Made by a program: the position numbers and the translations under genes. A DNA stretch of 64,000 nt from Hirudinaria manillensis. Taxonomy: Eukaryota; Annelida; Clitellata; Hirudinida; Hirudinidae. Shown here piece by piece: positions 3,656-64,000 of the stretch; within the stretch, counting starts at the first letter, position 1, and each line of letters opens with the position of its first letter. The notes below the pieces were generated by a model. It saw nothing but the letters and a program-made list of their open reading frames with translations, searched no databases and had not been told where the DNA came from. The stretch spans positions 2,732,501 through 2,796,500 of the forward strand of contig CM067535.1 in assembly GCA_034509925.1 (NCBI GenBank). The letters are read 5' to 3'.

Positions 3656-5164
3656 TCATTTCAAATATAATTTGTATTGTTCCTTAGCAATGGATATTAC
3701 TGCGGGGGCGATCAAAAGGATAATATTTTCACGAGCTTTCACACTTTTTGAACTGCCCGACTCTCCTTTCTCCATTACTGTTAAATTTAATGGTTTCAAT
3801 GTTATTGTCCCATTTGATATAAAAAAAAATGTCTAACTTTAAATAAATAGTAAAATACGCTTCAATTTCCCATCACCTACCTCTATAAATGAAATCTAAA
3901 TAATGATCAACGTGTGTGAAGATGCTGTTTGTACATTTATCTCCCGATGATATGAAATAAGACCTAGCAATGCCAACTTGTGTCCATATTCCGCGTTTAT
4001 CTTGACATGCGAATGCATTACCAGTGTCTCCCTTCAACGTAAATTAATTGTTTATGTCGGTTTAATTGCAATAACAATTGATAAAGATAATTATAATTAC
4101 AGTAATAATGATAATTATAATGACATTCATTATACTCAATAGCTTCATAGTTTTACTTCAAACTAAAAAAAACGCAAACATGAGAATTAAATGTAAAATT
4201 GACATTCGTAAATTAACAACCGTGCAGGCATTTGGCCCATACTCGGTGGGAATAGACCCAACGCAGAATATTTTGTTAGAATCCAGCAAATATGCGTACA
4301 TGGCAGGGCTCATATCTTGCAGTAATAAAGACAAATATTGTGCACATTGGGTATTAGACATAATATTCATTCTCCTTTGTTGCAAGAATTTAGCCGGCTC
4401 AGGATTTTCTGAAAGTAAAAACTGAAGGTAAATGAAGTATGAAAACTTAAGAACATAATCCCAGTCATATTAATTATGCATTTTATTATAACAATGAATA
4501 TAATAAAAACTCAACATATTAAAGCTAGATAAAAAAAAAATTAATAGAAATTTATTTCTACCTGCTTTGGTGCTCCCGAGACCAATTGCTACACACTGAC
4601 GGTAAGACATCAGCTTTCTCCATGATAATTCTTTATTAGGCAAACAAATTGGTCGGATTGTGGAAGTGAATTTCAATGGAGACTCTAGTCTCAGTAATGC
4701 CACGTCATTTGAATAGGAATCATTAAAATCAGGATGAATTGCCATGTGAGTAACTGGTAGTTTTTTCCTAAATGGGTCCTTGAGTCTAATAGTTCCAGTC
4801 TTGACTTTTATTTCGGACGGTTGTTTGTTTCTAAAAATTTTATTTGTTTAGATTAGTTTTTGCCATGAACAATATTGCGTAATAATTATATATTTATACA
4901 TGTCATGATCATTTCTTTTTAAATTAATTATAAATTATTGTTATTATATTATTCTGTTTCGAGTGGCAGCTGGAACTTACTGAAGGCATTGTGCTGCAGT
5001 GAGAATCCATCTTTTTGATATAATACTTCCACCACAAAAATGTTGTCCATCACTTAACAATTGGACTTGCCATGGCCAGGCACCCCGCTTTGCTTCCTCT
5101 CCTTTGATTATATACGGACCGAACTTGGGTACAGCATCATCGTCTCGTGTACCGCAGAAACTTT
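3656..5164 (-). other. Pseudoprotease module of copy A (exons 20-24)
   Basis: The module starts with a linker cysteine (FCGTRDD) that would pair with the Cys of RPICLP, as in two-chain serine proteases. The expected activation site reads FGPY then IIKGEEA: Tyr, not Arg or Lys, precedes the would-be new N-terminus. Hallmarks kept are WPWQ, FCGGSII, RPICLP and FCVGS. His57 is Gln and Ser195 is Thr. Asp194 is kept (GDTG), unlike in copies B to E. Peptidase activity is very unlikely; binding or regulatory use is inference from other serine protease homologues. Confidence 0.85.
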
Positions 5165-8100
5165 CTAAAGGTTTAAATAACCAATAAAAGCGGAATTAGG
5201 GCCATTAATGTATGTTTAGAAATTGGAAAAAAATGGAAAAGATATTACTTATGAGTAAATAATTGTTGCTTGCCATCGTGATTTCAATGTTAACTCTATT
5301 GAACTTAATACAATTGTACAATGTGCTCACTAATTTAATGTTTATCGATAAACTTCATGATTTTGTTGAAATTTAAAAAAAATTAATATATGAAAATGAA
5401 AAACTTGACCGGCAATTTACCCGGTTTGTGGTCGCAGTGAATTTTTACAAATTTTTCTGTTTCACATTGGGAACTTCAACAAAAGAAAAATAAATTGTAT
5501 TCAATTATAAAAATTTATTTTAACTATCACCAGTAATAATAAGTAATAAGCAATAATAATTAATTACTCTTGCCTTGGTTTAAATTTGTTCATGATTGGA
5601 ACACTGTTGTGGATGGAGTCGACATTTTCAAGTATTATGAATTTCTGATTTTTATTGATTGAATCATAACTCGTTTCCAGGTGGGTACTAGCAGATAGTG
5701 AGTTGAAATAAAAACGTGAGTGGCAACAAATATTACTACAATGAACCTGGCGTGTTGCTGGCAAATATCAATGCTGTAGTCAATTTTCCATCCTTGCGAA
5801 CATATATAGAAATCTGTTTCTCCCTTAAAAGTTGCGGTTATAAATTCCAGTCCTGTATGTGTTTCAACTAAAAACATAGAGAATATTTCTTATACTTATA
5901 ATATGAAATACTTTAATTATGATATTCTTACAGCAAGAATGCTCGTCAGAATAGTCTTCACAGTCAACATTGCCATCGCAAACAGCCTTCATGTCAATGC
6001 ACAAGTCTCTTTTCGTACATTTGAACTTTCCTTCTTCGCATTTCATTTCTTTGAAACGTTGATTTAGAAGATTTATTGTACACAAATCATTCCTTTCATA
6101 TCAAAATATTAATTTTTACTGCACGATGGAGCCTCATCATCTCCGAGATGACAATCAAGAATACCATCACACAACCATTCTTTAGGTACGCAACGTCCAC
6201 CGTGGCACGAATATTCGTGGAAGAGGCAATCAAAAGAAATTTCATCTTCAGTGGTTGCTGTAAGAACAAATTTATATTTCTTAAAATCTTAATTTGCTTA
6301 ATTTGCAGTAAAAAAAAATTGTTCCATATTATTAAAAAAATTAATTCTTTCCATTGAAAAGAAAAATATAAAAGTAAAATTATACTAATTAAAATATTAT
6401 ATTAAAATATTTTATTATATATATAAATATATATTAATAAAATATATTATGTAAAATTATATTATAATTTAATTGTAATTAAAACGACCTTTAGGATCCT
6501 CTTTTGAAAAAACCTCTACCTCACAAAGTAGTAACAAGTTGCTGCGTAATGTTTTCCCGCGCTTTTTAATGGTTACGTAGGAACCAAAGGTAGCTTTGTT
6601 GCATTTTATGAAGGCGGAAGTTCCTAATTTTATATATAACTTAAATAAATTTTATTTTGGTTTACATTTCGCTATAAAATAATATGGTAACTAATACTTA
6701 AAAAACAAAAAATACATATGAAGTTATAAATAAATGAATAATTACAGAAAGACGAACCATTTAATTTATCAACACCGTGGGAATAAGAGCCACATTGATG
6801 CTCTTCGTAATAGGTTTTGTGCTTTGAAACGTATATGTTAATTTCATAATTATATTTCTCTGGAAAAAAAGCAAATAACTAGTAGTAATAATATTGGTCC
6901 GTATTTAGTCATGTTTATGCATCATAAATTATTTACAATTACGTTAAGAAGAACGTTAGACCTGTTAATTTTCGCAAAAAGTGCATGTTAACATCGGTAA
7001 CGAAATAACTAGAGTCTAGGACAACACGCCACCATGCCACTCTATGTTGATCTGACGAAATAAGAGTACACGTGTCTAACTTGCCATCAACCGAAAATAA
7101 GGTTTCATTTGTGGGCAACGCTCCACTTTGAAAAGTCTTTTTTTTAAAGGCTAGATTAACTGAAATAGATAAATAAAATTTAATTCCAGAGCCGCATTTA
7201 CAAATTGTCAAGCACTTTTGCTAGAGAAATAACAAAAATTGAAGCTCATACTTCTTTACATACGCATTAAACCGTGCTATTAACCGTCTTTGTAGCTAAG
7301 TTTTAACTAAGTCTTATACTTTCAACGGAAAAGATTTCTTTACATGTTCCTCTTTGATAAAAAGCTTTATGATAACAGTATCTATTTATGCAAGACCTCT
7401 TTAATTAAAATCTGTTTCTTTCATTGAGAATTTCAAGTGCCAAAGAAAGATTACGAAGGGATGAGATGGCAATACCAATAAAACTAACACGATTGCCTGT
7501 CTGCCTTTAGTTGAACTTCGCATAGGACAAGCAAGTCCTTTCTGAATCCTCCATTTCTTGTTATTGTTACAAAATTGCCGGAAATTGGTTGTTTGCAATT
7601 CAATTGAATATGTCTAGCTGGATATTAAATACTGATTATCAATATATTGTTCCAAATGAACGAAAATGTCCGAAATTTTCGAAATACGGCTTACAAAATC
7701 AATAGATGGTTTTATAAATGAATTTGCAAGTCTGATATATATTGGAATATCTGACCGAAAAAAATATTGGATGAACCCAAAAACGAAACGCATAAGTCTT
7801 CTTCGAAATTTGAAGCACTTTTTGAAATAAATATGTTCAAAAAGTTCATGAATTGTGAATCTACAGAGAAAAATATTAAATTAATATTAACAGTTGGTAA
7901 CCAACACAATATTAACCTGTTATCTAACAATTTGCGATTTCGAAAATGAATAGATCTTTGCTAATTAGAGAAATTCCATTTTTTTGGATTCAATAATTAC
8001 CTTGCTCAAATTAATTTTAATTTTTCTGTAATAAATAAAAATAATGTAAGAAGTTACATATTTTATGGGAAGCGATGATTAACTCTGATATAGTGTAAAT

Positions 8101-11100
8101 TGTCTCAAGTTCCAATCTCCACCAAGGATGTTCTCCGCTTTTTGATTGTTGTGTCATAAAACAAGTATCTGGATTGCTATCAATAGCCATTTTTGGATTG
8201 CTATTGGAATCAGATTGGTTTTGATAAATTGTGGTTTGAATGAGGTTGACTGAAATCGGAATGAATAGTTGCATCAGAAACAAACTGTTAATAATAATAT
8301 TAATAATAATAATAATAATAATCAAAAACACAAAGAAACTGACAAACATAATGACTATAGACCAATAACTTGTCAGACCACCCTGTACAAAATTCTAACC
8401 TCCTTAATATCTTATAGAATCTATACCCATCCCCAAAATAATAACATTCTACGAGAGGAACAAAAAGGGTGCCAAAAAAAAGTAGAGGATGCAAAGATCA
8501 ACTGCTCATCAGTCAGATGATAGCCCAACACGCAAAAAATTCAAGAAAGACTTGTGCATCACCTGGATCGACTATAAAAAAAGCCTTTGATAGCATCCCC
8601 CACTCCTTGATCAGGCAAATACTAGAAACTTTTAAGATTGATGATGTCACCAGAAACTTCATTGGCCAGTCAATGCTTAGGTGGAGAACCAATGTGATTT
8701 TAACAGTTGGCAACGAATGCATAAAAACAGGAGAAATTTTTGTTAAGCGAGGAATATTCCAGGGAGACTCCTTGTCACCGTTATTGTTTTGCATGTCGCT
8801 GACACCATTATCAAACAATCTTAGGAGAAACGGAAAGGGATATGAAATACATGACCAGCAAATAAGTCACCTGCTATACATGGATAGAAATAAAACAAGG
8901 AAAAGTCATTCATGGAAGGAGCATTCAGCTCACGATCCCTCTGCAAATTAGGTCACTAGAAGCTGAGGAATGTTACAGATACCTTGGGATGGATGAATAA
9001 AGTGGAATAAACGATAGATTGGTGAAGCAAAAGGCCAAAAAAGAATACTTCAGGAGAATAAAGACAATCTTGGCGACTCAACTCAACTCGCGAAATAAAA
9101 TCACTGCCGTCAATGATCTGGCAATACCGGTGCTCTCCTATGGGTTTGGTATAATTCACTGGCTAAAATCGGAAATAGAAAAAAATGATAGAAAAACGAG
9201 AAAAATCTTAACGATTTACAAAATGCATCATCCAAGAGCGGACGTGCAAAGATTATATATTAAAAGAAAAAATGGTGGAAGAGGGCTTCTGGAGATATGG
9301 TCAGTATATCAACATGCGATGTTGGGTCTCTCGGAATATTTAGAAAGAAATGATAGTAAATAAGTTCAATTGATCAGACTCGATGATAGCTTCAAAAAAA
9401 AAATACTCAGTGATAAAGGAAGCTGATAAAACTCGAAATAAATACATGCTGAAGCACAACCACACGGACGTCAAAATCACAGACGAATTCAAGAAAAGAA
9501 TGGAAATAGAAAAGTTGGAGGATTTAAAGAGAAAACCCTTGCACGGAAAGTTTGTCAGGAACACTGAAAGGGCAGGAATGAGCAAGGAAATGACGTTTGC
9601 TCGGCTCAACAGAGGTGGATTGAAGGGAGAGACGGAGAGCTTGATAGTGGAGGCCCAAGATCAAGTATTAAAAACAAGATATTATTAAAGGCATATTTTG
9701 AAACAGGATATTAAAAGTACATGTAGAATTTGTCACAAATCAATAGAAACAATTAGTCATATCATATCCGGATGCCATTAATTGATGGGTAAAATCGCTT
9801 ACATTTTATTGGACATTAGCAATAATGACATTGAATCTGAATAATGCTATTGGAGTTTCTTTTGTTTTTGAAGTTCCAAAGCCACAAAAGTTAATAATCG
9901 TATAATAACAATCGATAATTTAAACTTACCTTGAAAAAGTGACAACTCTTGGACTTCTATTCGAATTGTATTTTGGAAAAGTAAAATTACTTTGGTCATC
10001 CATTTTTTTAAATTATTTTTTCTCTAATACATTATTATGTTATTTAAAAAAACTCCCTTTATTTTTTTGATTGACTTTACCTGAAATGTCTTCTTCTGTA
10101 AATATTTCTACTTCACAAAGAACCATTAGCCAGGTCTTTACTCCCCCGTACTTCTGGATAGTTACATATTGACCGAAAAGTGGTCTAGCGCATTTGACAG
10201 CTATTGAAGTGTCTTTTAAAATAAAACCATTGCTAACCACGTAAGCGGGAATTCAACTTAGACGTGAAATTCTCCTTAATTAATTATGTATTTTTTTAGC
10301 ACTGACCGATCAATTTTTTTTTTATAGTTTGAAATGGGTTTAGTGAAGGCTAAGCTATTGTAAGCAATGCCAACCGCTTAAAAAGTTTGCAAACATTATA
10401 ATATATTGTATGATCTTCTAGGATATTTAACGACATAAAAGCTTACTTTTTTCAACATTGTTGGGAATTTCTGTAAAGCCACATAGATAATCCTTATAAG
10501 ACTCCTCGGTATTTGAAACGTATACATTTACAAGAAACGCTGCTGCAATTTCTGTTAACATCAATTATACGAAATAGAAACAAAAAAAAAATGATGATCC
10601 GATCAACGAGTTTTAAAGTTAATAATTAACTAGCAAGGATATTACATTTTACAACAAAAGAGAAGTCTAAAGATTTTATTTAAAAGAAATCATACTGGCC
10701 TAAGTAATGCTGACTTTGAATGTACGTTTTTACATTGCTAATATAGTAACTGTCGTCTAACGTAACTCTCCACCAAACCAGTTCCATCGGCGAAGCTTGG
10801 ATGTAAGCACAAGTTTCAAGATCCCCATCCACTACAAATTCCTCTTTGCTTCCGATGGCTAAGGAACCGTAAGAGGTCGGCCTTCCGAGTGCAACGTTAA
10901 CTATCCTCGAATCATGAAATGATTTATGCTTATTTTAGGTCTCTATATCTGCGATTACAATTAAATTAGGCACTCACGTGTTTTGACATCAACGTTTATT
11001 TGAACTTCACACAATTGTAACGTTTCATTAGTTTTTTGATCTTTCGTAATCGTAACAACGTGACCTTTAAGAGTTTCTTTACATATAAAACGAATGTAAG

Positions 11101-11998
11101 GTCCTACGGAAAAAATTATAATCTAAAGATATAAATAATTAAAAGGTAAGCAGAATTTGCCCTTATGAGTTAATATTTAATGGATCGTAACGTGATATTA
11201 ACTCACTAGATGTCCCAAACGAGAGACATAAAGTCTCCTCAGTTTTTCGTTCATCTTTCGAAACGTAGACCTTAATGCTGTTGATCGTATGGTTTTCTAT
11301 AATTTTTCAATTTGTATTATTATTATTATTAAAATATCCACAAAAGTAATGTGCGTTTAGCGATATAAATATATCTTACATCAATAACCTTAATGTAACA
11401 CCTTCAAATAAGATGTTATCTCATAAAGGCATAATAAATTTGGATATTCAAAAAATATTCATACCTGACTGATCTGCCGTAAAATGTATCATCAAGTTCT
11501 CAACGTTGTACAATTTATTTAGTACTGCACGCCACCAAGGAGATTCATTTTTCTCCTGGTTCTCTTCAGCCACGGAACATGTTTGCAGATCTCCATCAAC
11601 TGCGAGATCTGCCTCAAATGTGCTTACCGTTTTGCTTTGCGAGACCGTTGATGTCGTTAATGACACTGAAATTGAATAAGAACCTAATTTTAAAAATATA
11701 ATCCCTATATTGATGACATCTTCTCTGCATTGAATTTCATAAATACATTACAAAATGACAATAATTAAATGTTTTTAACATCTTAATTTAGACAGTTCCT
11801 TTGTTTTTCCATATTTATCGATATTTTACATAAAAGTAGAATTTATTTCAAAAATAGTTAAATGAAATAAGAAATTCGTTCGTTTAAAACCAATCAACAA
11901 ATACCTGGTTCGGGTATATTTTCAATATTTCGGATTATTATTAAAATCGTAAAAATCTCGATCAAAAATAAATTTGCATTTAAAAACATGTTCGCCAT
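3656..11998 (-). CDS. Copy A: FTP(x4)-LDLa(x2)-SRCR-serine protease homologue, catalytically dead
   Basis: Twenty-four exons join in one frame (about 1,097 residues): 11905-11998, 11465-11665, 11207-11296, 10978-11103, 10700-10900, 10447-10551, 10081-10212, 9930-9956, 8058-8249, 7756-7860, 7489-7617, 6962-7159, 6758-6859, 6489-6623, 6120-6257, 5932-6048, 5747-5867, 5574-5687, 5421-5473, 4981-5164, 4562-4830, 4221-4408, 3881-4031, 3656-3777. The first ATG gives MANMF; the homologous start is the second ATG, at 11989. Copy A is the most diverged member. The catalytic His is Gln (TAAQC, exon 20), the catalytic Ser is Thr (GDTGNA, exon 23), and Asp remains (SNDVALLRL). All protease cysteines persist, so a folded pseudoprotease is likely. 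Its C-terminal exon is nine codons longer than that of copy E. Introns after exons 5 and 18 begin with GC. Intron 8 holds a LINE remnant. Exon borders are inferred from phase and homology. Confidence 0.85.
8289..8322 (+). repeat. (TAA)n microsatellite
   Basis: About eleven TAA units, with one interruption near the start, abut the 5' end of the R4/Dong-like reverse transcriptase remnant inside intron 8 of copy A. Dong-clade LINEs are known to insert into TAA repeats, so this is probably the remains of the target site. Confidence 0.85.
8323..9800 (+). mobile_element. R4/Dong-like (R2 group) LINE remnant, 5'-truncated and frameshifted
   Basis: Plus-strand frames between about 8330 and 9785 give successive pieces of a reverse transcriptase. 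They include NDYRPITCQTTLYKILTSLI, a degraded EEQKGC motif, KAFDSIPHSLI, FQGDSLSPLLFCMSL (the GDSLSPLLF signature of the R2 group), and a catalytic box corrupted to LLYMD. Further on are ECYRYLG, AIPVLSYGFGIIHW and GGRGLLEI, then a zinc-knuckle remnant CRICHKSIETISHIISGCH at about 9724-9780. At least four frame changes and stops make it inactive. No restriction-like endonuclease domain is seen after the knuckle. It lies antisense in intron 8 of copy A (8250-9929), which is why that intron is about 1.7 kb against a few hundred bases in the copies without large insertions. Confidence 0.8.
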
Positions 11999-13626: not shown

Positions 13627-14927
13627 TCAGTAATTGAATATTGCTCCGATAGCCATCAAAACGACCACATTATCATGAGGTTTCACACCTTTTGAAAGCA
13701 AGAACTCTCCTTCCACGGTTACTAATAAATTTAAAAATACCATTATGATCAAGTCGAAGTTAATTTATCTAGTTGATTAGCTAGTAAACTAGTCATTTCT
13801 TCAAGAATCTACCTCTGTGAATGAAATCTAAATATTGGTCAACATGAGTGAACAGGCTGTATGAACATGGATATCCTGGTTTCACTAAAACAGTTGTAAC
13901 AATGCCAACTTGAGTCCATATTCCGCGCTTGTCTTGACATACAAATCCATTTCCACTATTTCCCTATAAATATTCTATGAAGTTTAACACTAGAAAAAAG
14001 CCAAAATCTGATCATGCAATTTAATGAAAACTACAATTTAACAACCATGCATATGTTCCGCCCAAATTCATTTGGAATTGATCCGACGCAGAACATTCCG
14101 TTAGATTCAAGGAAGTAGTAGTAGCGAAATTCGCTCGCACCACCTATGGACACAGATACATATTTTGCACATTCCTGATTAGTCATTATATTCATTCTCG
14201 CTTGTTGCAAATGTTCAGGCGCTATGGGATTTCCTACAAGTATGAGTCCAAACTTGATCGATGACTGATGAAAAATAGCAATAATGCAACTCTACCTGCT
14301 TCGGTTCGTCCGAAACCAACTACCACGCAGTGTCGGTAAGACATCAGCTCTCTCCATGACAATTCTTTATCAGGCAAACAAATTGGTCGGATTAAAGAAG
14401 AAAATATAATTGGAGATGATAATCTTAGCAATGCTATGTCAAATGCATCCGATCCGTCATAGTTAGGATGAGGGGCAACATGAGAAATTTTTAATTTTTC
14501 TCGGTAAGGATCATTAAATTTAACGCTTCCAACTTTGATGTAGAGCTCGGAAAATTGCTTTTCACTGCGAATATTTTTATATAATTTTATTTGTTTATAA
14601 TTGTTTGATGCTTAACTATAGAGATATATAAAACCTAATTACTAATCTATAGGTTTCAAATAATAAATATGTTGATTAAATTTTAAATCAATTTAAAATA
14701 TTCGTTATTATATTATGTTGCTTGTATGGCAGCTAGAACCCACTGAATGCAATGCGCTGCGGTGAGAATCCAACTTTCTGATAGGATACTTCCACCACAG
14801 TAATAATTGCTTTCAATTAAGAAGTGGACTTGCCATGGCCAGGCACCTTGCTTAGCATTCTCTCCTCTGATTATATACGGACCGAAATTTGAATTAGAAA
14901 GATTACTTCGTGTACCACAGAAGCTTG
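13627..14927 (-). other. Protease module of copy B (exons 20-24)
   Basis: His, Asp and Ser of the triad are present, at exons 20, 21 and 23. The residue before catalytic Ser is Asn, the S1-floor position is also non-acidic (GRNIC before GNSG), and the SWG strand is replaced by IVTTVL. These changes predict either no activity or strongly altered specificity. Confidence 0.75.
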
Positions 14928-17900
14928 CTGAATTTTTAAATAAGAACTCTTATTTTAATCATCGCAACATATCAAAATAGTACGGCATAATACATAGTAT
15001 CTACAGCAATATTATGAAACATTATTTTAAATAAGCAATAATTGATTTCAATTAAAATACGTATAACAAGTATTAACTCTTTAATGCAATAAATAAAAAT
15101 TATCAATGCTTACCAAAATGTTTTTTATTTAATTTATTAATACTAAGTATAAATAAGCATAAATTATGATAAAAAAAATTACCTGTTGTATTGTCGCAAC
15201 GAATTTTTACAAAATTTTCTGTTTGACATTGTAAACTTGAACAAAAATGAATTGTATTAAGCTAAAAACATATATTCAAATTGAATCACGATTACCAAAT
15301 TACGTTTATTCACACCTTGGTTTAAATAATTCCATGAACGAAGACATTTTGTTAATGAAACCATCATCTTTGATTATTAAAAACTTCCTTGTTTTGTTCT
15401 CTAATGCTTCAAAACTTGTCGCTAGATGAAAACTGGTTGCAAACAAGTAGGTAGTTCTCAAATATTAGTATATTTTTAAACACCTTAAACATTTGCAGTG
15501 AAATATTTAACATATACTAAATCTACTGAAATTGGATTGACATTTACATGCCTGTCATGCTGTTGGCAAATATCAATGCTGTAATCAATTTTCCATCCTT
15601 GCGAACATATATAAAAATCTGTTTCTCCCTTAAAGGTTGCGGTTATAAATTCCAGTTCTGTATGTGTTTTAACTAAAAATTTGTTGAAGTTTATTAACAA
15701 TGTAATGTAAAATGCTTTAATTTTGATATACTTACAGCAAGAATGTTCATCAGAATAGTCTTGACAGTCAACGTTTCCATCGCAAACAGCCGTCATGTTA
15801 ATGCACAAGTCTCTCTTCGTACATTTGAACTTTCCTTCTTCGCATTTCAATTCTTATAATTGTTATTTTAGAATTTCTTTTTTAATGTAAACAATGTCTT
15901 CCATGTTAATCAACTTAGAAAACTTTACTGCACGATGGAGCCTCATCATCTCCTAGACGACAGTCAAGGGTTCCATCACACAGCCAGTCCATTGGTATGC
16001 AAGGTCCATCGTGACATTTGTATTCGTGAGAGGTGCATTCATAAGATACTTCCGACTTGCTAATTTCTAAGAAAAATATGTTTATTTTGTAATCAGGTCA
16101 TAATATGGATTAAAACATAATTCAATTTTATTCAAACGTTTACTTATTTTATCAAATTAAAATGACCTCTGGGGTCTTCTTTGGATAAAACTTCAACCTC
16201 GCAAAGTACTAGAAGTTTTTTTCTTCCGTGTTTTTTAATAGTTACATAGATACCAAAGGTGGGTTTATTACACGTTATGTTGATGGAAGTTCCTGATTTT
16301 ATATTTAATTTCAATGAAATTTATTACGATTTGTTGCTAAAATAATAAATTAAACGAAATCGTGAAGCGAAACTTTCGATGTGCTAAATAAATATAAAAA
16401 TTTTAAAACATGCCATTATCGTCTTTATCACCACTATAGGAATAGTAACCACAAGTCCGCTCTTCGTAGAAATTTTCATCGTTTGAAACAAATACATAAA
16501 CATCATAATTATCTTTTCCTGGAAAAACATCAAGAAGTTAACATTGACACTATCGAGGCTTAGTTAGTCAAATTAATTACCTAATCAATTATATTATTTA
16601 CAATAACAAGATGTTAAGAATTAGTTTATGGACTAGCCTGTTAAAGGTCGCCAAAAGTGCATGTTAACATCTGTGACATAATAACTATTATCCAATACCA
16701 CACGCCACCAAGCAAAGAGGTGATGAAACGGTGCAATCACAGCACAAGATTTAATTTTGCCATCAACAGCAAAGATTGATTCAGTATCGAACAATGTTCC
16801 GGTGTTATAAGTTGATTTTTTAAAGGCTAGATTAACTGCAATAAGTAAATGTTTAGTTTCAGAAACGTATTTCAATTGTGAAGTATCAATATGTAGTGGC
16901 GCCATATAATTCTTCAGATATATATCAAACCATTATTAAATCCTTGCAATTGCAGACAATTTTTTTGAGTTTTTATTTAATTTTATTAGAAAACAGAAAA
17001 GAGACTGAAATTGCACCTCTTCCTATGTATATCACTCCCTACGATGACAACATTTAAATAAACAATCTATGAAACGATACTTGATTCCATCCACTTTTAG
17101 CGATGAGTTTGTAATAGAAATAGATAGAAATCTAACATGATTTCCTATCTGCCTTTATATAAATTTCGCAAAGGACTAGCATTGTCTTTCTGAATCCTGC
17201 TGTTCTTGTTATAGTTATAAATTTGCCAAAAATCGGTTTGTTGCATATTATTTCGATGTGCTTAGCTGTGTAATCATTTGTGATTAGCAAATTTTGGATT
17301 AATGAATAACAACTCTTCATAGCAATATAAATATGTATACAAAATTATAGTAAGTTAAATGTAAGCCAAGATGGAAATTTATAAATTTCATTAGTGAAAC
17401 TAATATCATTAGATTGACCACATAGAATCAATGAATAAAAAAATATTCACCGACCAAAAAAAATATTGGAGGGACCCTGAAATGAAGAGCATAAGTTTTC
17501 TTCGAAATCCTCGGAATTTTTTGAAATGTATATATTCAAAGAGTTCATAAAGTAAAAATCTATGAATAATATTAATAATTAAAACTCTTGCAATAATAGG
17601 CCTTAATACTAACAATAGGCCTTTTCCATTTTATCAAATTAAAAAATAAAATAATTTTTAATGTTGAGTGAAAATTATTAATGGAGCTAAAAATGTAGGA
17701 TTTAAATATGTAAAAAAATAATTTGTGAAAAATTTAAATATGTATAAACTCGCAGGTTTTATGGGAAGTGATTATTAACTCTGATATATCATAAAATGTA
17801 TCAAGTTCCAATCTCCACCAAGGATGATCTCCAGGTGAGAATTCTTCGGAAATAGAACAAGTGTCTGGGTTTCCATCGGTAGCCATTTTTGAATTATGAT

Positions 17901-45184: not shown

Positions 45185-45213
45185 TTTGGCGACGAGGATT
45201 TAGAAGAACCATT

Positions 45214-46899: not shown

Positions 46900-46972
46900 C
46901 ACAAGCGAACCTCAAACAGATTGGAAGTAGATACATCCAATGTCAATTATGAAGGTTTGTGAGAGGGGGAGG

Positions 46973-47163
46973 TGTTATGGGCCGAATTATATAAATAATA
47001 TTATAAATTTATTATTTATAAAATATTTAGTATTAAGTAGTAATAAAATATTCATAGTCTTTTTTATTAATATTACTAGAGCTTGTGATATTTATTTTGG
47101 AAATAAAAGACACACTTGACACACCAACTTATCTCTTAATTAAGCATTACCACGGATATAACA
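46973..47163 (+). repeat. 3' LTR
   Basis: Nearly identical to the 5' LTR and preceded by a polypurine tract. On the minus strand it begins 70 bases after the stop codon of copy E, so it probably lies in that gene's 3' UTR. Confidence 0.9.
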
Positions 47164-51500: not shown

Positions 51501-54140
51501 GAGAATTCTTCGGAAATAGAACAAGTGTCTGGATTTCCATCGGTAGCCATTTTTGAATTATGATTGGGTTTAAACTGGTTTTGAGAAGTTATCGAATCAA
51601 CGAGGCTGACTGAAATCAAAACAAATAAAAGCGACACAAACTATAGTTAACGGTTACATAAATTTACTTATGCTTAGATGTACATTGTCAATAATAACAA
51701 TAAATATATAATTTGACATAAATTATTATTGGAGATTCTTTATTGAATCTTAAATGTCGCAATAATTCAAATTTTGCTCAAATCTATCATTTAAGGAACA
51801 TACCTCGAAAATGTGATAATTCTTGGATTTCTATTCAAAAATATTTCGGAATTTTTGAAACTTCTAAATTTATATATATTTTTTTTTACAAAATACTTCA
51901 AAGATATATTTGTTAAAACTTGCTAATTGTTGTAATATTTAGCTCAATTTACCTGAAATATCCTCTTCGAAAAATATTTCTACTTCACAAAGAATCATTA
52001 GCCATGGTCTAATTCCTGCATACTTCTGAATTGTTACATACATACCAAGAACCGGTCTGTTGCACTTTACAACTATTGAATTATCTTTAAAAAATGTGAA
52101 TCTTATTAAACACATAAATAAGGATTAAGCTGAAATACAATTTTATGTTTGCATTATTGAACTTTTATATAGTTTTTTTACGTGCTTTTATTTCAAATTG
52201 CTATGACGTCTTTTTATTCAATTGAGATTTTCCCCTGATGTAAAAGAATGGTATGATCGCAAAATCAATTTTCAATTTTTGTTAACAAACATATTAAGCA
52301 ATAAAAATGAAATGTGAAATAAAAACCTACTTATATCAAGTTTATTGTTCGGACTTTCTGTAAAACCACAAAGATAATCCTTGAATGAATCTTCATTGTT
52401 TGAAACGTACACGTTTACAAAAATAGAAGTGGACGCTTCTGTTATAATTAATTATAAGTTAGAAACAATTTTATAACGAAAAACGTGATAAATTCTACAA
52501 GTTTTAAATTTATTAATTTTCTCAAAAAAAAAAGATTTTAAACCAAAACGTCACATTTCAGCGGACCTCCAATTAAATCCGCTTGAAAATAAATGATTAT
52601 GTTGCTAATATAGTAACTGTCATCGAGTCCAACTCTCCACCAAACTAATTCCTCCACCAAAGATTGAATCGTAGCACAGGTTTCTATATTTCCGTCTACT
52701 ATGGATTCCGCTTTGCTTTTCGCACCTAAGGTTTTGTAAAACGTCGGCCTTCCGAAGGCAATGTTAACTATCCTCGAATCATTTAATGAATTATAAATTA
52801 TTAAGTTATCATCTGCGAAAAAATTAATTACTTACACTTCTTTATATCGACATTAAATTGAACTTCACACAATTTTAAGTTATCATATGGTCTAACATCT
52901 TTTACAATCGCAACAATGTGACCGTGAAGAGTTTTTTCACATTTAACGCGAATATAAGGTCCTAAGAAACAATTTGAAATCTAAAAATCTGATTAATTAA
53001 GGTGTAAACAGATTTCTCTTTTTTTCTATATATATAGATTTATATTGTTGGATCCCTGACATTAATTAATTAATTGAATAATTAATTAATTGAATAATTA
53101 ATTAATTAAGTTTAGTTAATATTCAGTATCTTTTATTTCGAAGTCGTATCTAGCGATTCAAGTCATTAAGCTGTTCCATCGGGACAAGCAATCGACCAAA
53201 TCGTCCAGACGTATTTGCCATTAGTTAAATCCAATAAAGATATCCTTACGTTAATTAATTCATCAGACCCCGGGTTACAACAATATATATAGTTAGATAT
53301 AGACTTTGTAGTATAATAGTTTTTTTTAAATTTGTCCACTCACTCGTTGTCGAAAATGAATGGCACAAATTATCCTCAGTTTGCTGGTTATCTGTCGACA
53401 CGAAGATCTTTGCGTTGTTGATCTTACGGGTTTCTGTAACTAATTGATTTCAAATAAGATTACGTTAAACATAACTAATAAAATGTGGGCATTTCACCAC
53501 ATTAATAAAAATCTTTATAAGATTTAAGTTTCAATTGTAAGCAGAAACATAACAAACTTTGAAATTTCATTTAAGGTTGTAATCCCCTAAAATCTTAATA
53601 AAATTTAATAATTATTTATGTTCTTACCAGATTGATCTGAGGAGAAATATATCACCAAATTCTCAATGTTGTAAGCCTTATCAAATACCACACGCCACCA
53701 AGGAAGTTGGTTTGACTCCTTATCCTCTTCAGCCATGGAACACGTTTCCTTATTCCCATCAATTGCCAAATTTGCTTCAAATTTGAATGTAGTTTTACTT
53801 TGCGACACATCTGAGTTGATGAATGTCACTGAAATTGAATTAAAGCATTATTTAAAAAATATAAGCCCTATGTTCTTCACTGCATATATTGGTTATTAAC
53901 TTTGTCAATATATTCTACATCGACTTTATGTAACATCTAAGCTAGACGTTTACTTTTTTCTTCTGTATTTATCGATATTTTAAATAAACTTGCTAATAAA
54001 ATAGTGAAATGAATTAAGAAAATCGTCCATTTAAAACTTAAAAACAAAACCAAACCTTGCTCAGGTGTACTATCGATATTTCGGATTATTATTAAAATAT
54101 TAAAAATACCGATCAAAATTAGATTTGTTTTTAAAAACAT
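47234..54140 (-). CDS. Copy E: intact FTP(x4)-LDLa(x2)-SRCR-serine protease (reference copy)
   Basis: Twenty-four exons join in frame, 3,264 coding bases, 1,087 residues: 54056-54140, 53628-53828, 53344-53433, 52836-52961, 52567-52767, 52331-52438, 51953-52084, 51804-51830, 51418-51609, 51146-51250, 50846-50974, 50266-50463, 50038-50142, 49764-49895, 49526-49663, 49334-49450, 49150-49270, 48906-49022, 48764-48816, 48348-48528, 47905-48176, 47662-47849, 47429-47579, 47234-47328. Domains: signal peptide 1-24, FTP1 29-167, FTP2 168-314, linker 315-323, FTP3 324-465, FTP4 466-610, LDLa 611-656 and 657-695, SRCR 696-792, protease 793-1087 with His850, Asp896 and Ser1009. Exons 2-16 are all phase 1 at both ends. 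Introns after exons 9, 12, 13 and 17 start with GC. A secreted multivalent lectin with a protease-fold tail is well supported by motifs; ligand and substrate are unknown. Confidence 0.9.
48764..49270 (-). other. SRCR domain of copy E (exons 17-19)
   Basis: The three exons encode [15 protein letters not shown] and CQQ (exon 17), [16 protein letters not shown] and SSFTKLFKA (exon 18), and [14 protein letters not shown] (exon 19). The spacing of cysteines, the FxxL segment before SSxC and the final V-x-I-x-C match the SRCR domain that precedes the catalytic domain in TMPRSS/hepsin-type proteases. Only the cysteine pattern and a few hydrophobic anchors are conserved, so the call rests partly on domain order. 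Confidence 0.7.
49334..49663 (-). other. Two LDL-receptor class A repeats of copy E (exons 15 and 16)
   Basis: Exon 15 encodes [20 protein letters not shown], then [17 protein letters not shown]. Exon 16 encodes [21 protein letters not shown], in shorter terms the same six-cysteine pattern, then [16 protein letters not shown]. The acidic DxxDxSDE calcium cage is complete in the second repeat and altered (RLGDDE) in the first. One exon per repeat is typical of this module. Confidence 0.9.
49764..53828 (-). other. Four FTP (fucolectin/tachylectin-4/pentraxin-1) domains of copy E
   Basis: Each domain uses three exons of similar size (about 200, 100 and 130 bp). The first exon carries an A-x-DGN-x-TC and a WW(R)V box, such as [10 protein letters not shown] with [13 protein letters not shown]. 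The second carries VYVSNNE or IYISKN and a cysteine. The third carries RVKCEKTL or IICNK and ends in LCEV. They are exons 2-4, 5-7, 9-11 and 12-14. A 27-bp exon 8 links the second and third domains. Fucose binding is known for some members, but the sugar-contact residues are not obviously all present. Confidence 0.85.
53046..53282 (+). mobile_element. Divergent solo LTR in intron 3 of copy E
   Basis: TGTTGGATCCCTG at the left and GACCCCGGGTTACAACA at the right enclose a body unlike the other LTRs of this window. ATAT flanks both ends, and CCAATAAAGA lies inside. It is a related subfamily or a strongly drifted copy. The left part contains repeated TTAATTAATTGAATAA. Confidence 0.65.
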
Positions 54141-54381: not shown

Positions 54382-57300
54382 GACTCGGTCATGTGCGCAT
54401 CGTGCGTGTTGGCGGATTGTCTTTTCGTGTGCCCTTAAACCGTTTTTGCGAGTGTAGCGGACTTTTATTTATTACAAATTAGATATATTTCTACTCGTCT
54501 CATTGGGAGCTTTCGAAATATACCACTTTCACTTACATGGGCTCGCGTTATCCAGACTTTCGTTGTATTTACATTTCTTCTCGGCTAACAGCTTGCTGAA
54601 CCTCAGCCTACTTCAGGAGTCCTTCTCAGACCTCTTGATACGTGCAAATGAAGACGTATGATCGCACACAACTTCTCAATTTGAACTATGGGAGGAAACG
54701 ACTTGACAGAGCTATACGAAAGTCGTTGTTCCACCTCCTGATCTGGCGACCGAAGAACTGGCTTCCAAGCATGCCTTTGCCCCCTCGCCAAACACTGATT
54801 ATGAAAGATCAGAACGTTACTCTTAGAATGGGATGTCTGAACATCCGATCGATAAGGAAAAAGTTTGATGCCCTCTCGGATATTATGGCTGCTGGCAAAG
54901 TCAATGTGCTGTCTACGACTGAGACCTGGCACGATGAAGGTTCCTTGGTAATTAATCAGTTACGAGCTCGAGGCTACTCGGTCATTGATCGCCCGAGACC
55001 TCGTGTAGGCTCTGCCCAGAGGTCCCTGAAGACAAACCATGGTGGTCTAGCTGTATTTTCCTCCCCTTCAGTAAAACTGCAGCAGCAAAACCTCTGTTTC
55101 AACCCAACTACCTTCGAATCTCTTGCCGTCCACATAAACAATGACGAAAAACACATAAACCTATTGACAATATACAGGACTGGAAACTTAGAGACTCTCT
55201 TTTTCTCAGAACTCTCGGAGCTACTGCGTCGTTTTGTCATTGGCTCCCCGACACTGTTTGTTACTGGGGACACAAATATTCACCTTGAAAAGACTGATGA
55301 TTCGAACAGCCTGGTTTTCAGTAATCTCATTTCATCTTTCGGCCTTAGACAGATTGTTGCCGGCCCCACCCATGATTGCGGTGGAACCCTGGACATTGCC
55401 CTTGAGAAGGACGATGATGGCTTACCTGTTACGGCGGTCGAAAAGTTTGAAAGTGGTCTTTCTGACCACAAACTTCTAATATGGATGACTTCGTCCTCAG
55501 TCCCTCGTCACATACCAGACGCAAATAGGGTCAGGCTCTGGAGGAATTTTGACATGCCTATCTTCGAACGACTTCTCAGCACCTCTCCTTTGACCAACCC
55601 AGAGACATGGACCTCCATGGATATTGATCGCCTGGCTGATCTTTACTATGACACTCTCAATGAGGTGGTTGAGAGGTCCCTCCCCCTCTCGACTCCACGC
55701 TTCTACAAATACAGACAGCCATGGTTTGATGCTGAGTGCATGAGAGTGAGATCACACCTGACTCGACTCAGAAGACGGCGCGCCAGCACTGACATCATCA
55801 GGGCTTCTGCCCGCTCGTATGCTGCTCAGCTACATCAAAAGCGTCGAAACAACTATGCCAGGCGCATAGCAGAGGTGCGCCATCCTGCCAGAAGATGGAA
55901 GCTCATCGGAGATGCTACTGGACTAGGCAGCGTCACAAGTAGATTGGCTGCTCCGGCCCCTCCAGTCTACCGCGAGTACCTTGATGGAAAACTGATTGCC
56001 ATCCGCTCAGCCAAGAGCGATGCTTCGCCACCTCACTTCCTTCCCTGTGTCACAGGTTCGGAGTTGCAGCAATTTCAGCCAACCTCCATGGATGAGATCC
56101 TGGAGCTCATCAACTCCCTCCCCTTGATCCGATACCCACTTGGTTGCTGAAGAAGGTCTTTCATGTCCTTGCCCCATTCGTCGTTCACCTGTTCAACAAA
56201 TCCTTGCTCCTGGGCCAAGTTCCCCACTCCTTCAAGATGGCACAAATTCAGCCCATTCTTAAGAAGCCCACCCTCGACCTGCAAGCACCTTCATCGTACC
56301 GCCCAATATCTAATCTAAGCGTCATGTCAAAGCTTCTCGAACGACTCGTACTTAGACGCCTCCTGTTCTACCTAAATAGCAATACACTCTTTCCCAGCAC
56401 ACAGTCTGCCTATCGACCGCATCACTCCACTGAGACCGCTTTATTGAAGGTTGTGTCTGACATACGCATGGCACTCGATGCAGGTCAGGTCTCCCTCCTC
56501 CTTCTGCTGGACATGTCAGCGGCCTTTGACACCGGTGAGCCTGGCACCGCCAGTTTGGATGAAACATTTGGAGTTCGTCACAATGCACTGCAGTGGTTCA
56601 GAAATTATTTGTCTGTTAGTGCCATCCATCTTGTGCAATCGGGCGTTCCCCAGGGATCAGTCTTAGGACCAATATTGTTCACACTATATGTGGCTGACAT
56701 TGAAAGCATCACCTCCAAACATAGACTTTTCAGTCATCAGTATGGTGTTGACATTCAGATCTACGGCAACTCCAAACCTGATGATGCCCCTACCCTTGTT
56801 GGTCGTTTGTCGGACTGCCTTCATGATATTATTTCCTGGACAGCCTCCAACAGGCTACTACTCAACCCCGACAAGACTGAAGCAATCCTCGGCTCGACTC
56901 GGTCATATCAGTGACCTCCCGCTCCAGCTGGCGGGTTCTTCCATCACCCCTTCACGGACAGTCAGGAATCTGGGGGTCTACTTGGAATCTTCCATTTCCA
57001 TGAAGTCCCATGTTAATCGGGTTTCTGCCGCCTGCTATGCCAAGCTTCGCATCCTCAAGGAGGCGAAGCCATTCCTACCACCTGAGGCTTTTCGGTTTCT
57101 CACTATTCAATTTATTCTGGCGCGGCTTGACTACTGCAACTCTCTGTTGGTCAATGTCAACCACCAAATCATCAGCATCTTCCAGACCGTCATGAACACG
57201 GCCGCCAGGCTCATACAAGGAGGGAGACCATCGGACCATATCTACCCGGTGCTTGCTAATTTTCACTGGCTGAAGATCCCGGAGCGGGTGCTGTACAAGA

Positions 57301-57798
57301 CTGCCCACCTAGTCTACAAGGCCGCCACAGGTCAAGCCCCTCGGTACTTGACTGAACTACTGACTAGTTCCACAGCTGTCCCTGGCAGGGCATCACTCCG
57401 CTCATCCGAGACTAGGACCCTGGTCGTCCCACGGTCTCGCAGAGTCAGGCAGGGTGATCGGGCCTTCTACGTCGCCGCTCCTGTGATCTGGAACCTGCTT
57501 CCTCCGAACATTCGTCTGGCTCAGTCGTCAGAAGCCTTCAAATCAGGACTGAAAACACATCTATTTGTGACCTCATACCAATAATTCTTTAATCTATAGT
57601 TTGTGTTTTTTCCTTGTCTTTATTATTTTATTTTATTCCATTCCGTTTACTCACTTTTATTTTAACCTCATCTTATTTTATTTTTTGTTGTTTTTTTTAA
57701 TCTTACATTTCATAGACTGCAAACTTGTGAACTCTGCCGCCGTGCCTTTACATCGCGCACGTAAAATATTAGACAAATAAATGTAAATGTAAATGTAA
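54382..57798 (+). mobile_element. Near full-length CR1/L2-like LINE, inactivated
   Basis: A GC-rich 3.4-kb element sits between flanks that are contiguous in copy D's upstream region (TTGGCCA before, AAATATCCACATTC after), with a short AAAT-type target repeat. It ends in ATGTAA repeats, a typical tail of L2/CR1-group LINEs instead of poly(A). It carries an endonuclease-reverse transcriptase frame broken in three. GC content contrasts sharply with the host DNA, which suggests it arrived later than most relics here. It separates copy E from the spacer it shares with C/D. Confidence 0.85.
54801..57584 (+). pseudogene. LINE ORF2: endonuclease and reverse transcriptase, frameshifted
   Basis: Three frames must be joined. 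The part from 54801 to about 56120 is an exonuclease-endonuclease-phosphatase domain (GCLNIRSIRKKF, TTETW, LFVTGDTNIH, GLSDHKLLIW) plus linker. From about 56125 to 56890 is the reverse transcriptase (IPTWLLKKVF, YRPISNLSVMSKLLERLV, LLLLDMSAAFDT, SGVPQGSVLGPILFTLY). From about 56885 to 57584 is the thumb and C-terminal part (VRNLGVYLESSI, LARLDYCNSLL, APVIWNLLPPNIR). The catalytic YxDD box reads YGVD, and a stretch between the fingers and the SGVPQGS motif is deleted. It therefore cannot encode an active enzyme. Confidence 0.85.
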
Positions 57799-59768: not shown

Positions 59769-61064
59769 TTAGCACTCATTGAATAATGTTGCGATAACCA
59801 TCAAAACGATCCCATTTTCATGAGCTTTCACACCTTTTGATAGCAAGTACTTTACTTCTTCGGTTACTATTGAATTTAATAATATCAATAATTCAGGTTG
59901 AAGTTTTTTTTAATATATCTAACAATTGATTATTTGGTAAACTAGTCATTTCTTCAAGCATATACCTTTCTGAATGAAATCTAAATATTTGTCAACATGA
60001 GTGAATAGGCTAGTTGAACATGGATATCCTAGTCTCGTCAAATAGCTTTTAGCAATGCCAACTTGGGTCCATATTCCGCGCTTGTTTTGACAGACAAATC
60101 CATTTCCACTATCTCCCTAAAAATAGTTATTGAAATTTATCATAAAAAAAACTAAAAATATTATAAAACAATTTATTGAAATTCGCAACATAACAACCAT
60201 GCATGTGTTACGCCCAAATTTAGTTGGGACTGATCCGACGCAGAAGAGTTTGTTATATTCAAGGTAGTTCTTGTATCCAGAATCATTCATTTTACCAATG
60301 AACTCAGATAAATATTGTGCACATTCCTCGTTAGACATTATATTCATTCTTGTTTGTCGCAAGTGTTCAGGCGTTTTTGAAGTTCCTACAAGTACAAAAT
60401 AGCTCAATGACTTACAAAAATATCATAAATGTAGTTCAACCTTCTTCAGTTAGTCCGAAACCAAATACTACGCAGTGTCGGTAAGACATCAGCTCATTCC
60501 ATGACAATATTTTATCAGGCAAACATATTGGACGTATTAATGAAGTGAATGTCAGTGGAGAAGATAACCTTAGCAATGCTATATCGTAAATTGTAGATTT
60601 ATCAAAATAACTAGGATGAGGGGCAACATGAGAAATTTTCAATTCTTCCAGGTAAGGGTCATTGAATTTAACGCTCCCAACTTTGATGTAGATCTTGGAA
60701 AGTTGTTGATTACTACGAAAATTTTTAAATATTTTTATTTGTTGTTTATATTTGTGAGATGCTTAACAATAACGATACTTAATATCAAATTACTTATGTG
60801 TAGGTTTCAAATGATAAATATTTTTTTAAATCATTTATGAATTATAATTATTATACTATTCTGCTTATGATGATAGAACCAACTCAATGCAATGCGCTGC
60901 GGTGAGAATCCATCTTTCAGATATGATACTTCCACCACAGTAACCGCCGCCTTCACGTATTAATTGGACTTGCCATGGCCAGGCACCTTGCTTGGCATTC
61001 TCTCCTCTGATTATATAAGGACCGAAATTTGAAATAGAAAGTTCATCGCGTGTTCCACAGAAAC
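59769..61064 (-). other. Protease module of copy F (exons 20-24)
   Basis: [13 protein letters not shown] and GDSGNG are all present, with FGPY then IIRGEN at the activation site. This is the copy closest to a catalytically competent protease by sequence. It still lacks a basic P1 residue and a normal SWG strand (GIAKSYLTR). Confidence 0.75.
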
Positions 61065-64000
61065 CTTTTGAATTTAAAAAAAAAAAACTATTATTTTGCT
61101 CATCGAAACTTATCAACCAATATTTTAATTCTACAACATTATGACATTATTATGTAGCCTTATATTAAATTGGCAATAAGGAATTCCACATAATTTTTAG
61201 CAAGTTATTAGCCTTCAGACAATAAAAACAAAACAAACAATCCCTCCTAAAATTGATTTTAAATTTATTAGTATCAAAATTTAAATTATGATAAATAAAT
61301 ATTACCTGCTGCGTTCTCGCATTGAATTTTTACAAACTTTTCTGTTTGACAATGCGAACTTAAAAAATAAATTATATAAAGCGAAAAACATATATTTAAG
61401 TTAAATAACGATTAATACTATAATTACTAAATTACTTTTATTCACACCTTGCTTTAAATAATTTCGTGAATGAAGAACTTTTGTTATTGAAACCTCCCTC
61501 TTCGATTGTTAAAAACTTTCTCGTTCTGTTCCCTAATGCTTCATAACTGGTCGCTAGATGAAAACTGGTTGCCAAAAAGAAGACATATAATAAATATTAC
61601 TATATTTCAAGTTAAATTAAACAAATGTCGTGAAATATTTTATATATATTAAATCTACTCAAAACTAGAATAACTTGTATATACAACATACCTGCCATGT
61701 TGCTGGCATACATCAATGCTGTAGACAATTTTCCATCCTTGCGAACATATATAGAAATCAGTTTCCCCCTTAAAAGATGCGGTTATAAATTCCAGTCCTG
61801 TATGTGTATTTACTAAAACACGTTTAAGCTTTTCATAATTTAAATATTATATAATCGGAATGTTAAATTTTTTAAGTTATGAAACTCGTACGGCAAGAAT
61901 GTTCATCAGAATAGTCTTGACAGTCAACGTTGCCATCGCAAACAGCCGTCATGTTAATACACAAGTCTCTCTTCGTACATTTGAACTTTCCTTCTTCGCA
62001 TTTCATTTCTTATAATTGTTATTTTAGAATTCTTTTTAAATATAAACAATATGTCTTCCATGTTAATCAACTTTGAAAACTTTACTGCACGATTGATCCT
62101 CATCATCTCCTAGACGACAGTCATGGGTTCCATCACACAGCCAGTCCTTAGGTATGCAAGGTCCTTCGTGACATTTGTATTCGCGAGGGAAGCATTCCCA
62201 AAAAACTTCCGCCTTGCTCATTTCTAAGAAAAATATGTTTATTTTGTAATCAGGTCATACTATGGATTAAAACATAATTCAATTTTATTCAGACGTTTAC
62301 TTATTTTATAAAATTAAAATGACCTCTGGAGTCCTCTTTTGATAAAACTTCCACTTCGCAAAGTACTAGAAGTTTTCTTCGCAATGTTCCGTGTTTTTTA
62401 ATAGTTACATAGATACCAAAGGTGGGTCTATTGCACGTTATGTTGATGGAAGTTCCTGATTTTATATTTAATTTCAATGAAATTTATTTTGTTTTATTTG
62501 TTGCTAGAATAATAACTTAATTGAAATCTTGATGGAAAACTTTCGATGGCACAAATAAATGTAAAAATTTTAAAACATGCCATTATCGGCTTTATCACCA
62601 CTATAGGAATAGTAACCACATGTCTGCTCCTCGTAATAATTTTCATCGTTTGAAACATATACATTAATATCGTAATTATCTTTTCCTGGAAAAACATCAA
62701 GAAGGTATCATTACTGACACTTTCGATGCTTAGTTAGTCAAATTAATTACCTAATCAATTACATTATTTAGAATAAAAGATGTTAAGAAATGGTTTATGG
62801 ACTAGCCTGTTAAATTTCGCCAAAAGTGCATGTTAACATCTGTGACATAATAACTATTATCCAATACCACACGCCACCATGCAACGTTGTTTTGGAATCC
62901 TCCAATCACAGCACATGTTTTTATGTTGCCATCAACAGCAAAGATCGATGCGGTATCGAGCAATGTTCCGGTGCTATAAGTTGATTTTTTAAAGGCTAGA
63001 TTAACTGCAATAGATACAAGTTTAGTTTCAGAAGCATTTATATCAATTTCATTCTGAAATCTGAAAATTTGTTATTCGTTTAATAAAGTGGCATTATGTA
63101 ATTCTTCGTATGCATATCAAACCGTTCCTATATCCTTGCCATTGCAAATAATTTTTTTAAATACCCATAATTTAACCTAGGGAAGATTTGTTTCATTTCT
63201 GAAGATTATATTGGACAACAAATTTTAAAGAATTGTGCGTAAAACAACGAACAAACGAAGCAATAAAAATTCCCAAAGGTATATCTGAAAGGAGACTTTG
63301 TGAATTTGAGAAGTGCTCACTGGTAGATCGTAGGAAACGAAAGTTAATCATAGGCGATTTGGCGAATACAAAAGTCAGAGAAATTTACAAAACAAAAAGA
63401 AGACTTAATTTCACATCTTCCTGGATGGATCGCTGCAAACGATAACAACATTTAAATAATCAATATTTGAATACTTGAATCCAACCACTTTTAACGATGA
63501 GTTTGTAATAGAAATAGATAGAAATCTAACGTGATTTCCTGTCAGCCTTTAGTTGAATTTCGCAAAGGACTAGCATAGTCTTCCTGAATCCTCCCGTTCT
63601 TGTTATAGTAATAACTTTGCCAAATATCGGTTTGTTGCATATTATTTCGATGTGTTTAGCTGTGTAATGATTTGAGATTAACAAAAATTGGATTAATGAA
63701 TAACAACTCTTCTTAGCAAAAAACAATTGTCCAGTTATAAGTAAGCCAAGGTTGACATTAATAAATTTCATTAGTGTAACCAATATTATTGGATTGACCA
63801 CATAGAATAAATACATAAATAAATATTCACCGACCGAAAAAAATATTGGATGAACCCTGAAATGAAGCGCATAAGTTTTCTTCGAAATACTCGGAATTTG
63901 TTGAAATGTATATATTCAAAGAGTTCATAAAGTATAAATCTATGAATAATATTAATAATTATAATCTATAATTATAATCACACAATATTAAAACTAACAA
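59769..64000 (-). CDS. Copy F (partial): FTP3 (part)-FTP4-LDLa(x2)-SRCR-serine protease
   Basis: Exons 10 to 24 are in the window and open: 63835-63939, 63531-63659, 62807-63004, 62581-62685, 62324-62455, 62086-62223, 61892-62008, 61692-61812, 61448-61564, 61306-61358, 60884-61064, 60441-60712, 60198-60385, 59966-60116, 59769-59866. The signal exon, FTP1, FTP2 and the first exon of FTP3 lie beyond the right edge. The triad is complete and the serine box is GDSGNG, the only copy besides A to keep Asp194. The acceptor before exon 20 has CAA where paralogues have CAG, and an AG three bases further in (CAAAAG then GTTTC) keeps the frame at the cost of one codon. Introns after exons 12 and 13 start with GC; the intron after exon 17 starts with GT. 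Its first LDLa repeat has drifted ([14 protein letters not shown]). Confidence 0.85.

Follow-up and report, generated by a model that had tools for sequence, protein, structure and literature searches.

A single polypeptide carrying both a lectin-type domain and a serine protease domain has precedent in Apis, where the Tequila-type protein SP23 combines chitin-binding, C-type lectin, kringle, PAN, SRCR, LDLa and S1A domains, and the accessible part of the same source applies the term serine protease homologue to S1 proteins without a triad residue (PMC1761132). For F-type lectin (FTP) domains, the eukaryotic partners named in the accessible text of PMC5712786 are C-type lectin, pentraxin, CCP, transmembrane, FA58C and factor I-MAC domains, and the word protease is absent from that text, which defines the fucose motif as HX24RXDX4(R/K) and the cation motif as h2DGx and notes the existence of deviating FTP domains. 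In the scabies mite, a clustered and largely inactive S1 family is described, in the portions of the reports available, as inhibiting host complement and is thought to be gut-protective (PMC4641413, PMC4031079). Here, a 64,000-nucleotide stretch of Hirudinaria manillensis (the window, C10:2732501-2796500 in a genome of 148.4 Mb and 23 contigs) is analysed, which contains a tandem array of six minus-strand gene copies (c1 to c6). Their common exon plan is predicted to encode, in this order, a hydrophobic leader, four domains of the F-type-lectin fold, two LDLa domains, a degenerate SRCR domain and an S1A domain. No published description of the four-FTP-LDLa-SRCR-S1A architecture was found in a literature search, whose scope left subscription journals mostly outside.

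Judged from the sequence, there is an even chance that these genes encode multivalent binding proteins with a protease domain that is leaving catalysis, the window covering one part of a large tandem family whose products are extracellular mosaic proteins. Copies were located by a comparative gene finder followed by exon-by-exon mapping with splice sites, and the survey was widened to 264 kb (the window plus 200 kb, with positions >64000 given in window numbering).

Domain architecture

The final model comprises 23 exons, with one exon for the leader, three for each of the four FTP domains, two for the LDLa pair, three for SRCR, four for S1A and one for a doubtful tail, and all introns from the leader through the LDLa domains are in phase 1. 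On copy c5 the plan reads as follows.

54056-54140, minus strand: exon 1, hydrophobic leader at the N-terminus, either signal peptide or anchor
52836-53828, minus strand: FTP domain 1 (exons 2-4), profile match
51953-52767, minus strand: FTP domain 2 (exons 5-7), profile match
50846-51609, minus strand: FTP domain 3 (exons 8-10), profile match
49764-50463, minus strand: FTP domain 4 (exons 11-13), profile match
49334-49663, minus strand: two LDLa domains (exons 14-15), Pfam match
48764-49270, minus strand: SRCR_2-like domain (exons 16-18), Pfam match of 26.1 bits
47429-48528, minus strand: trypsin-fold S1A domain (exons 19-22) with its triad residues retained and Asn194
47234-47328, minus strand: exon 23, doubtful C-terminal tail, model

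The domain order put forward in the original prediction was confirmed by Pfam searches of joined exons, using an FTP protein joined from exons of c4 and c6, the LDLa/SRCR part of c4 and the protease of c6. F5_F8_type_C_2 (PF22633) was matched in four stretches (5.4e-33), Ldl_recept_a in two stretches (9.9e-20) and Trypsin with 3.2e-43. Eight FTP domains of two copies were combined into a profile, which matched six distinct PDB sequences at values up to 0.01, with FBP32 (3cqo, 2.9e-16) and eel agglutinin (1k12, 1.5e-11) as the best matches, the others being two fucolectin-related proteins and two forms of Sm-hPAF. Against the same database, the C-terminal block was aligned across its length with enteropeptidase (1.1e-38) and TMPRSS2 (1.6e-35), followed by hepsin (2.4e-28), and LRP2 topped the table by way of its many LDLa repeats. 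By these comparisons the recognition of the domains lies far beyond chance, and the symmetric exons and the link to an LDLa-SRCR-protease block that had been proposed are upheld by the intron phases and by the alignments across the block. An unrelated Pfam family was matched at chance level (E 0.18, 12.2 bits vs a cut-off of 27), and a search of NCBIfam returned one match, which was sub-threshold.

SRCR_2 was under the cut-off at first (0.0022) with a wrong end of exon 16; with the corrected junction of exons 16 and 17, all five stretches submitted, out of nine available, matched this family (best 1.1e-6), the match of c5 reaching 26.1 bits vs a cut-off of 27. Since the profile of the SRCR stretch alone gave nothing in the PDB beyond one chance-level match, this label is the weakest of the domain calls. 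The proteins had been called secreted on the strength of a short hydrophobic N-terminus, which could also be an anchor.

The intron between FTP4 and the first LDLa exon measures 96-231 bases in all 12 full-length copies of the 264 kb, too short for a separate promoter, and hence FTP and protease exons likely belong to one transcript. Separate lectin and protease genes were rejected as highly improbable on the lengths and phases of the introns. Earlier exon models with a longer FTP4a exon and an extra exon of 27 bases in some copies were inconsistent across copies and were dropped.

Catalytic state of the S1A domain

Residue numbering was taken from alignments to plasma kallikrein and prostasin, and residues 57, 102, 194, 195 and 214-216 as well as the activation site were counted by eye in the exon matches on both strands of the 264 kb. 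Tyr precedes the activation site (P1) in 25/25 exon matches, Ser-Trp-Gly (SWG) at 214-216 occurs in 0/28, and residue 189, readable in 25 of 27 matches of exon 21, is Asn in 22 and Asp in none, which together rule out a conventional trypsin. Within the four-FTP clade, fragments included, the motif around the catalytic serine reads GNSGN in 11 of 15 exons, GDSGN in three and GDTGN in one, with Asn194 in c2-c5 and Asp194 kept in c1 and c6. Asn194 is expected to weaken the Ile16-Asp194 bond and hence activation.

Outright losses in the triad are seen in c1 (Gln57, Thr195), in a copy at 2.725 Mb of C10 (Tyr57, Thr195) and in the C4 copy L029 (Ser57, Asn102). By the definition quoted above, these three, each with at least one triad residue lost, are serine protease homologues, and c2, c5 and c6, which keep all triad residues, are not. 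Five other places of the genome were compared (L027-L031); Arg|IIGG, Asp189 and SWG are all present at L028, SWG is present at L031, and L030 gave no readable match.

Sugar and cation motifs of the FTP domains

The fucose motif was found in 0/36 FTP domains of the nine copies with stop-free joined frames, even with loose spacing allowed. Its absence rules out an identity as fucose lectins and leaves the sugar recognition that had been predicted without backing. The DG of the cation site is present in 35/36 domains, and the strict h2DGx motif in 23/36 by our own count from the listing.

Gene array, copies and their integrity

Exon mapping confirmed that the recurring array is real. It consists of six collinear minus-strand copies and a two-exon fragment, and its exon blocks appear as direct repeats at a spacing of ~10-14 kb, with one short spacing due to the fragment.

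3656-11989, minus strand: copy c1, 23 exons, joined frame without stop, Gln57 and Thr195, the most diverged copy of the window
5574-5687, minus strand: diverged exon 17 of c1, the second of the SRCR exons, with a GC donor; not picked up by the exon search, read in the gap instead
13627-20156, minus strand: copy c2, 23 exons, no stop in the joined frame, every modelled intron GT/GC-AG, GNSGN
23545-30733, minus strand: copy c3, 23 exons, reading frame damaged in exon 2 (30221-30427)
33575-40854, minus strand: copy c4, 23 exons, reading frame damaged in exon 4 (39804-39930)
43484-43826, minus strand: gene fragment limited to exons 22 and 23; the GNSGN exon is open, and exon 23 contains a stop
47234-54140, minus strand: copy c5, 23 exons, no stop in the joined frame, every modelled intron GT/GC-AG, GNSGN
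59769-64000 (part inside the window, exons 9-23), minus strand: copy c6, exons 1-8 beyond the window end, to 66630, GDSGN

Within the window the joined frame is uninterrupted in c1, c2, c5 and c6, and frame lesions are present in c3 and c4. A plan of 24 exons had been proposed, of which the common plan holds and the number does not, as 23 exons were modelled and exon mapping of the copies found no 24th. Exon 23 itself is kept only as doubtful, because its ratio of nonsynonymous to synonymous substitution (dN/dS) is 0.72 among seven close copies and 0.91 among nine, and because reading through past exon 22 soon meets a stop in many copies.

Across the 264 kb, 12 copies possess all 23 exons, counting c1, in which 22 exons came from the exon search and exon 17 from reading the gap. 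Nine of the 12 have joined frames without stop and three are damaged (c3, c4 and a copy at 141354 with an insertion in exon 21); other copies in this region, beyond these 12, are truncated or more diverged. GT/GC-AG signals are found at every modelled intron in five of the nine stop-free copies (123877, 95494, 80759, c5 and c2). At exons 8, 11 and 16 many copies, for example c2 and c5, have a GC donor where others have GT. In c1, c3 and c6 some modelled boundary is without AG or GT/GC, namely at exons 3, 6 and 12 in the model of c1, and at the exon 19 acceptor of c6, which is AA in the model. Such non-canonical boundaries may be shifted boundaries or lesions, and some lesions could be assembly errors. 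Differences between copies in catalytic residues, frame and splice sites, from which a still-changing array had been proposed, are in this way substantiated by Gln57 and Thr195 of c1, the lesions of c3 and c4, the alternation of GT with GC at donors and the irregular boundaries of c1, c3 and c6.

Size and spread of the family

With the protease exon 19 as a query, 94 matches were obtained in the genome, of which 63 (two partial) lie within 740 kb on C10 (2518250-3257389). Another five are on C4 (10.62-10.66 Mb), and the other 26, for the most part weaker, lie elsewhere. An FTP exon, for which 150 of 151 candidates were scored, gave 90 matches, almost all of them in this stretch of C10, with three on C4 and one on C11. 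The six copies of the original prediction are correct for the window, and the idea that they constitute the whole family is ruled out by the C10 and C4 exon matches. Checks of the full architecture covered the 264 kb and, at the level of exon matches, two more pieces (L024 and L025). Several plus-strand relatives at 2.64-2.68 Mb (e.g. 2643017-2649160) show two FTP and three LDLa domains followed by SRCR and protease, and hence the number of FTP domains varies among relatives.

Two observations were made beyond the cluster. On C11, the range of 1.72-2.66 Mb holds many F5/8-type matches and no matches to the protease exon, and one 8-kb sample of it (L026) gave only weak FTP exon matches. At C10:4016901-4017900 (L027), >750 kb off the cluster, a protease domain lies in one open frame of 517 residues with Tyr|IING and GDSGGP and without SWG, which is perhaps an intronless relative.

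Selection and exchange between copies

By the method of Nei and Gojobori, applied to the nine stop-free copies (c1 without exon 17), dN/dS lies between 0.35 and 0.51 in all 36 pairs, around 0.43, an estimate that leans towards constraint because stop-free copies were chosen. The family is under purifying selection. Among seven close copies, dN/dS amounts to 0.50 for FTP1, 0.27-0.29 for FTP2-4, 0.39 for LDLa, 0.47 for SRCR and 0.53 for the protease, and the proportion of synonymous differences (pS) is 0.240 in the protease vs 0.118-0.141 in the FTP domains. When all nine copies are taken, the difference becomes smaller, with 0.48, 0.32, 0.39 and 0.32 for FTP1 to FTP4 and 0.48 for the protease.

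Trees of 12 copies were built for six blocks, namely FTP1, FTP2, FTP3, FTP4, exons 14-16 and exons 19+20+22, with exons 1, 17, 18, 21 and 23 excluded. In the approximately unbiased (AU) test, none of the five other trees is accepted by the protease block (p <= 2.3e-12), nor is the protease tree accepted by any of the other five blocks (AU p <= 0.0016). Some neighbours agree in one direction; FTP2 accepts the FTP1 tree (0.18) and FTP4 accepts the tree of exons 14-16 (0.14). Several branches within blocks are poorly supported. The best reading of the conflicting block trees is an exchange of exon blocks between copies, which, with the lesions and the variation of splice sites, agrees with an array that is still changing.

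Mobile elements and other observations

At 44994-47163 on the plus strand lies a short insertion resembling a long terminal repeat (LTR) retroelement, with two direct repeats of 191 bases that are 97% alike, a purine-rich tract ahead of the second repeat and an open stretch of 602 codons, without a Pfam match, whose start lies within the first repeat. A 1-kb probe of this insertion gave 63 matches genome-wide. An element resembling a long interspersed nuclear element (LINE), with Exo_endo_phos and RVT_1 matches, occupies 54639-57581 on the plus strand; its first open frame begins 499 bases upstream of c5 exon 1, and the likeness between copies breaks near 54360. Being so near, this element may affect the c5 promoter. 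Elsewhere in the assembly, COX1 scores equally on the mitochondrial contig (C23:31-1371) and at C9:3026446-3027786, the C9 match being due either to recent transfer into the nuclear genome or to an assembly error. The mitochondrial COX1 is well read when AGA is taken as Ser, AAA as Lys and TGA as Trp, a code in keeping with protostomes.

Proposed mode of action and alternative explanations

A coordinated scheme can be envisaged in which the row of four FTP domains would bind a multivalent target, probably with stabilisation by cations and not at the classical fucose site. The S1A domain would stay folded and, in the four-FTP clade, would largely have ceased to be a conventional protease, serving instead as a binding, decoy or regulatory module, and diversity would arise through duplication and exchange of exon blocks between copies. 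Several findings weigh against this scheme. The triad is mostly intact (His57 in 22/25 exon matches, Asp102 in 26/27, Ser195 in 25/28), Asp194 is kept in 16/28 (Asn194 in 11/28), GDSGGP is present in relatives outside the four-FTP clade, and the conserved Tyr|Ile-type site could point to a dedicated activator. Four of the nine stop-free copies (150302, 104300, c6 and c1) are non-canonical at one to four modelled boundaries. FTP2-4 are, moreover, the most conserved part in the seven close copies, a poor fit to fast-evolving recognition; their low dN/dS makes them not like hypervariable binding domains.

The same residues bear on a working recognition protease, for which cascades of the lectin-pathway and factor C type serve as the model. 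The zymogen would be collected at a surface by its FTP domains, the cut after Tyr would come from a chymotrypsin-like enzyme or from a neighbouring copy, and the S1A domain would then cleave a substrate with non-tryptic specificity. The largely retained triad, the constancy of Tyr|(I/V/M) in 25/25 exon matches and the GDSGGP copies of the cluster argue for such an enzyme; the Asn194 of most four-FTP-clade exons, with its expected effect on the Ile16-Asp194 bond, the missing SWG and Asp189 and the three copies with outright triad losses argue against it, and we consider it unlikely, albeit the main rival of the preferred reading. Of the multivalent pattern-recognition protease or homologue in the original prediction, the multi-FTP and S1A architecture thus stands, sugar recognition was not borne out, and proteolysis is at best undecided given Tyr at P1, the frequent Asn194 and the losses at 189 and 214-216.

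If the genes encode binding proteins with a protease domain leaving catalysis, as preferred here, a role in defence would be one option, and the same proteins might instead act in digestion, feeding secretions or reproduction. The analogy is the scabies mite family, whose inhibition of host complement means that such clusters need not be receptors of an organism's own immunity; FTP domains are, however, not mentioned for that family in the available text, and we deem such a use rather doubtful. A decaying repeat array or separate short genes, with no joint lectin-protease product or with most copies dead, is highly improbable, since the frame lesions or exon insertion in 3/12 full-length copies, the truncated copies and the non-canonical boundaries of the four stop-free copies are set against 9/12 joined frames without stop, five of them GT/GC-AG throughout, and a dN/dS of <= 0.51 in every pair.

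A more speculative extension of the preferred reading, which we hold to be improbable, is a recombining repertoire, in which dozens of FTP-LDLa-SRCR-S1A genes would trade exon blocks and re-pair binding rows with (pseudo)protease ends, yielding a germline-encoded, shuffling set for multivalent recognition with a zymogen switch repurposed after Tyr. The locus bears on the reuse of lectin-fold domains that lack their sugar site and on the way in which a protease domain leaves catalysis while selection retains it, and with exon-block exchange across the cluster the re-pairing of recognition and effector ends becomes testable.

Comparison with known systems

Corin, TMPRSS proteins, hepsin and enteropeptidase share the LDLa-SRCR-S1A order with the genes described here, the SRCR domain of the latter being near the Pfam cut-off, but the leech genes have four FTP domains in front and lack both the Arg/Lys activation site and Asp189. 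Type II transmembrane serine proteases possess an N-terminal signal anchor, whereas here the hydrophobic N-terminus is a putative anchor. With the F-type lectins (1k12, FBP32 3cqo, tachylectins) they have in common the fold profile, the tandem arrangement of domains and the DG of the cation site, and they differ from them in the missing fucose motif in all 36 domains. As far as the accessible parts of the respective accounts go, starfish DMBT1-like proteins resemble them in joining F5/8 type C with SRCR domains within a single secreted protein of a large family, with no protease domain mentioned for them (PMC10448888), and the scabies mite inactive serine protease paralogues likewise form a clustered S1 family with lost catalytic residues, which are described as proteolytically inactive, whereas here the triad is mostly kept and FTP, LDLa and SRCR domains are added. 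Also among the nearest published architectures is the Tequila-type SP23 of Apis, which also brings a lectin-type domain, SRCR, LDLa and S1A together in one polypeptide; according to the available text, SP23 is activated after Lys and has trypsin-type specificity residues (PMC1761132), in contrast to the FTP domains, the Tyr at P1 and the absence of Asp189 that characterize the array.

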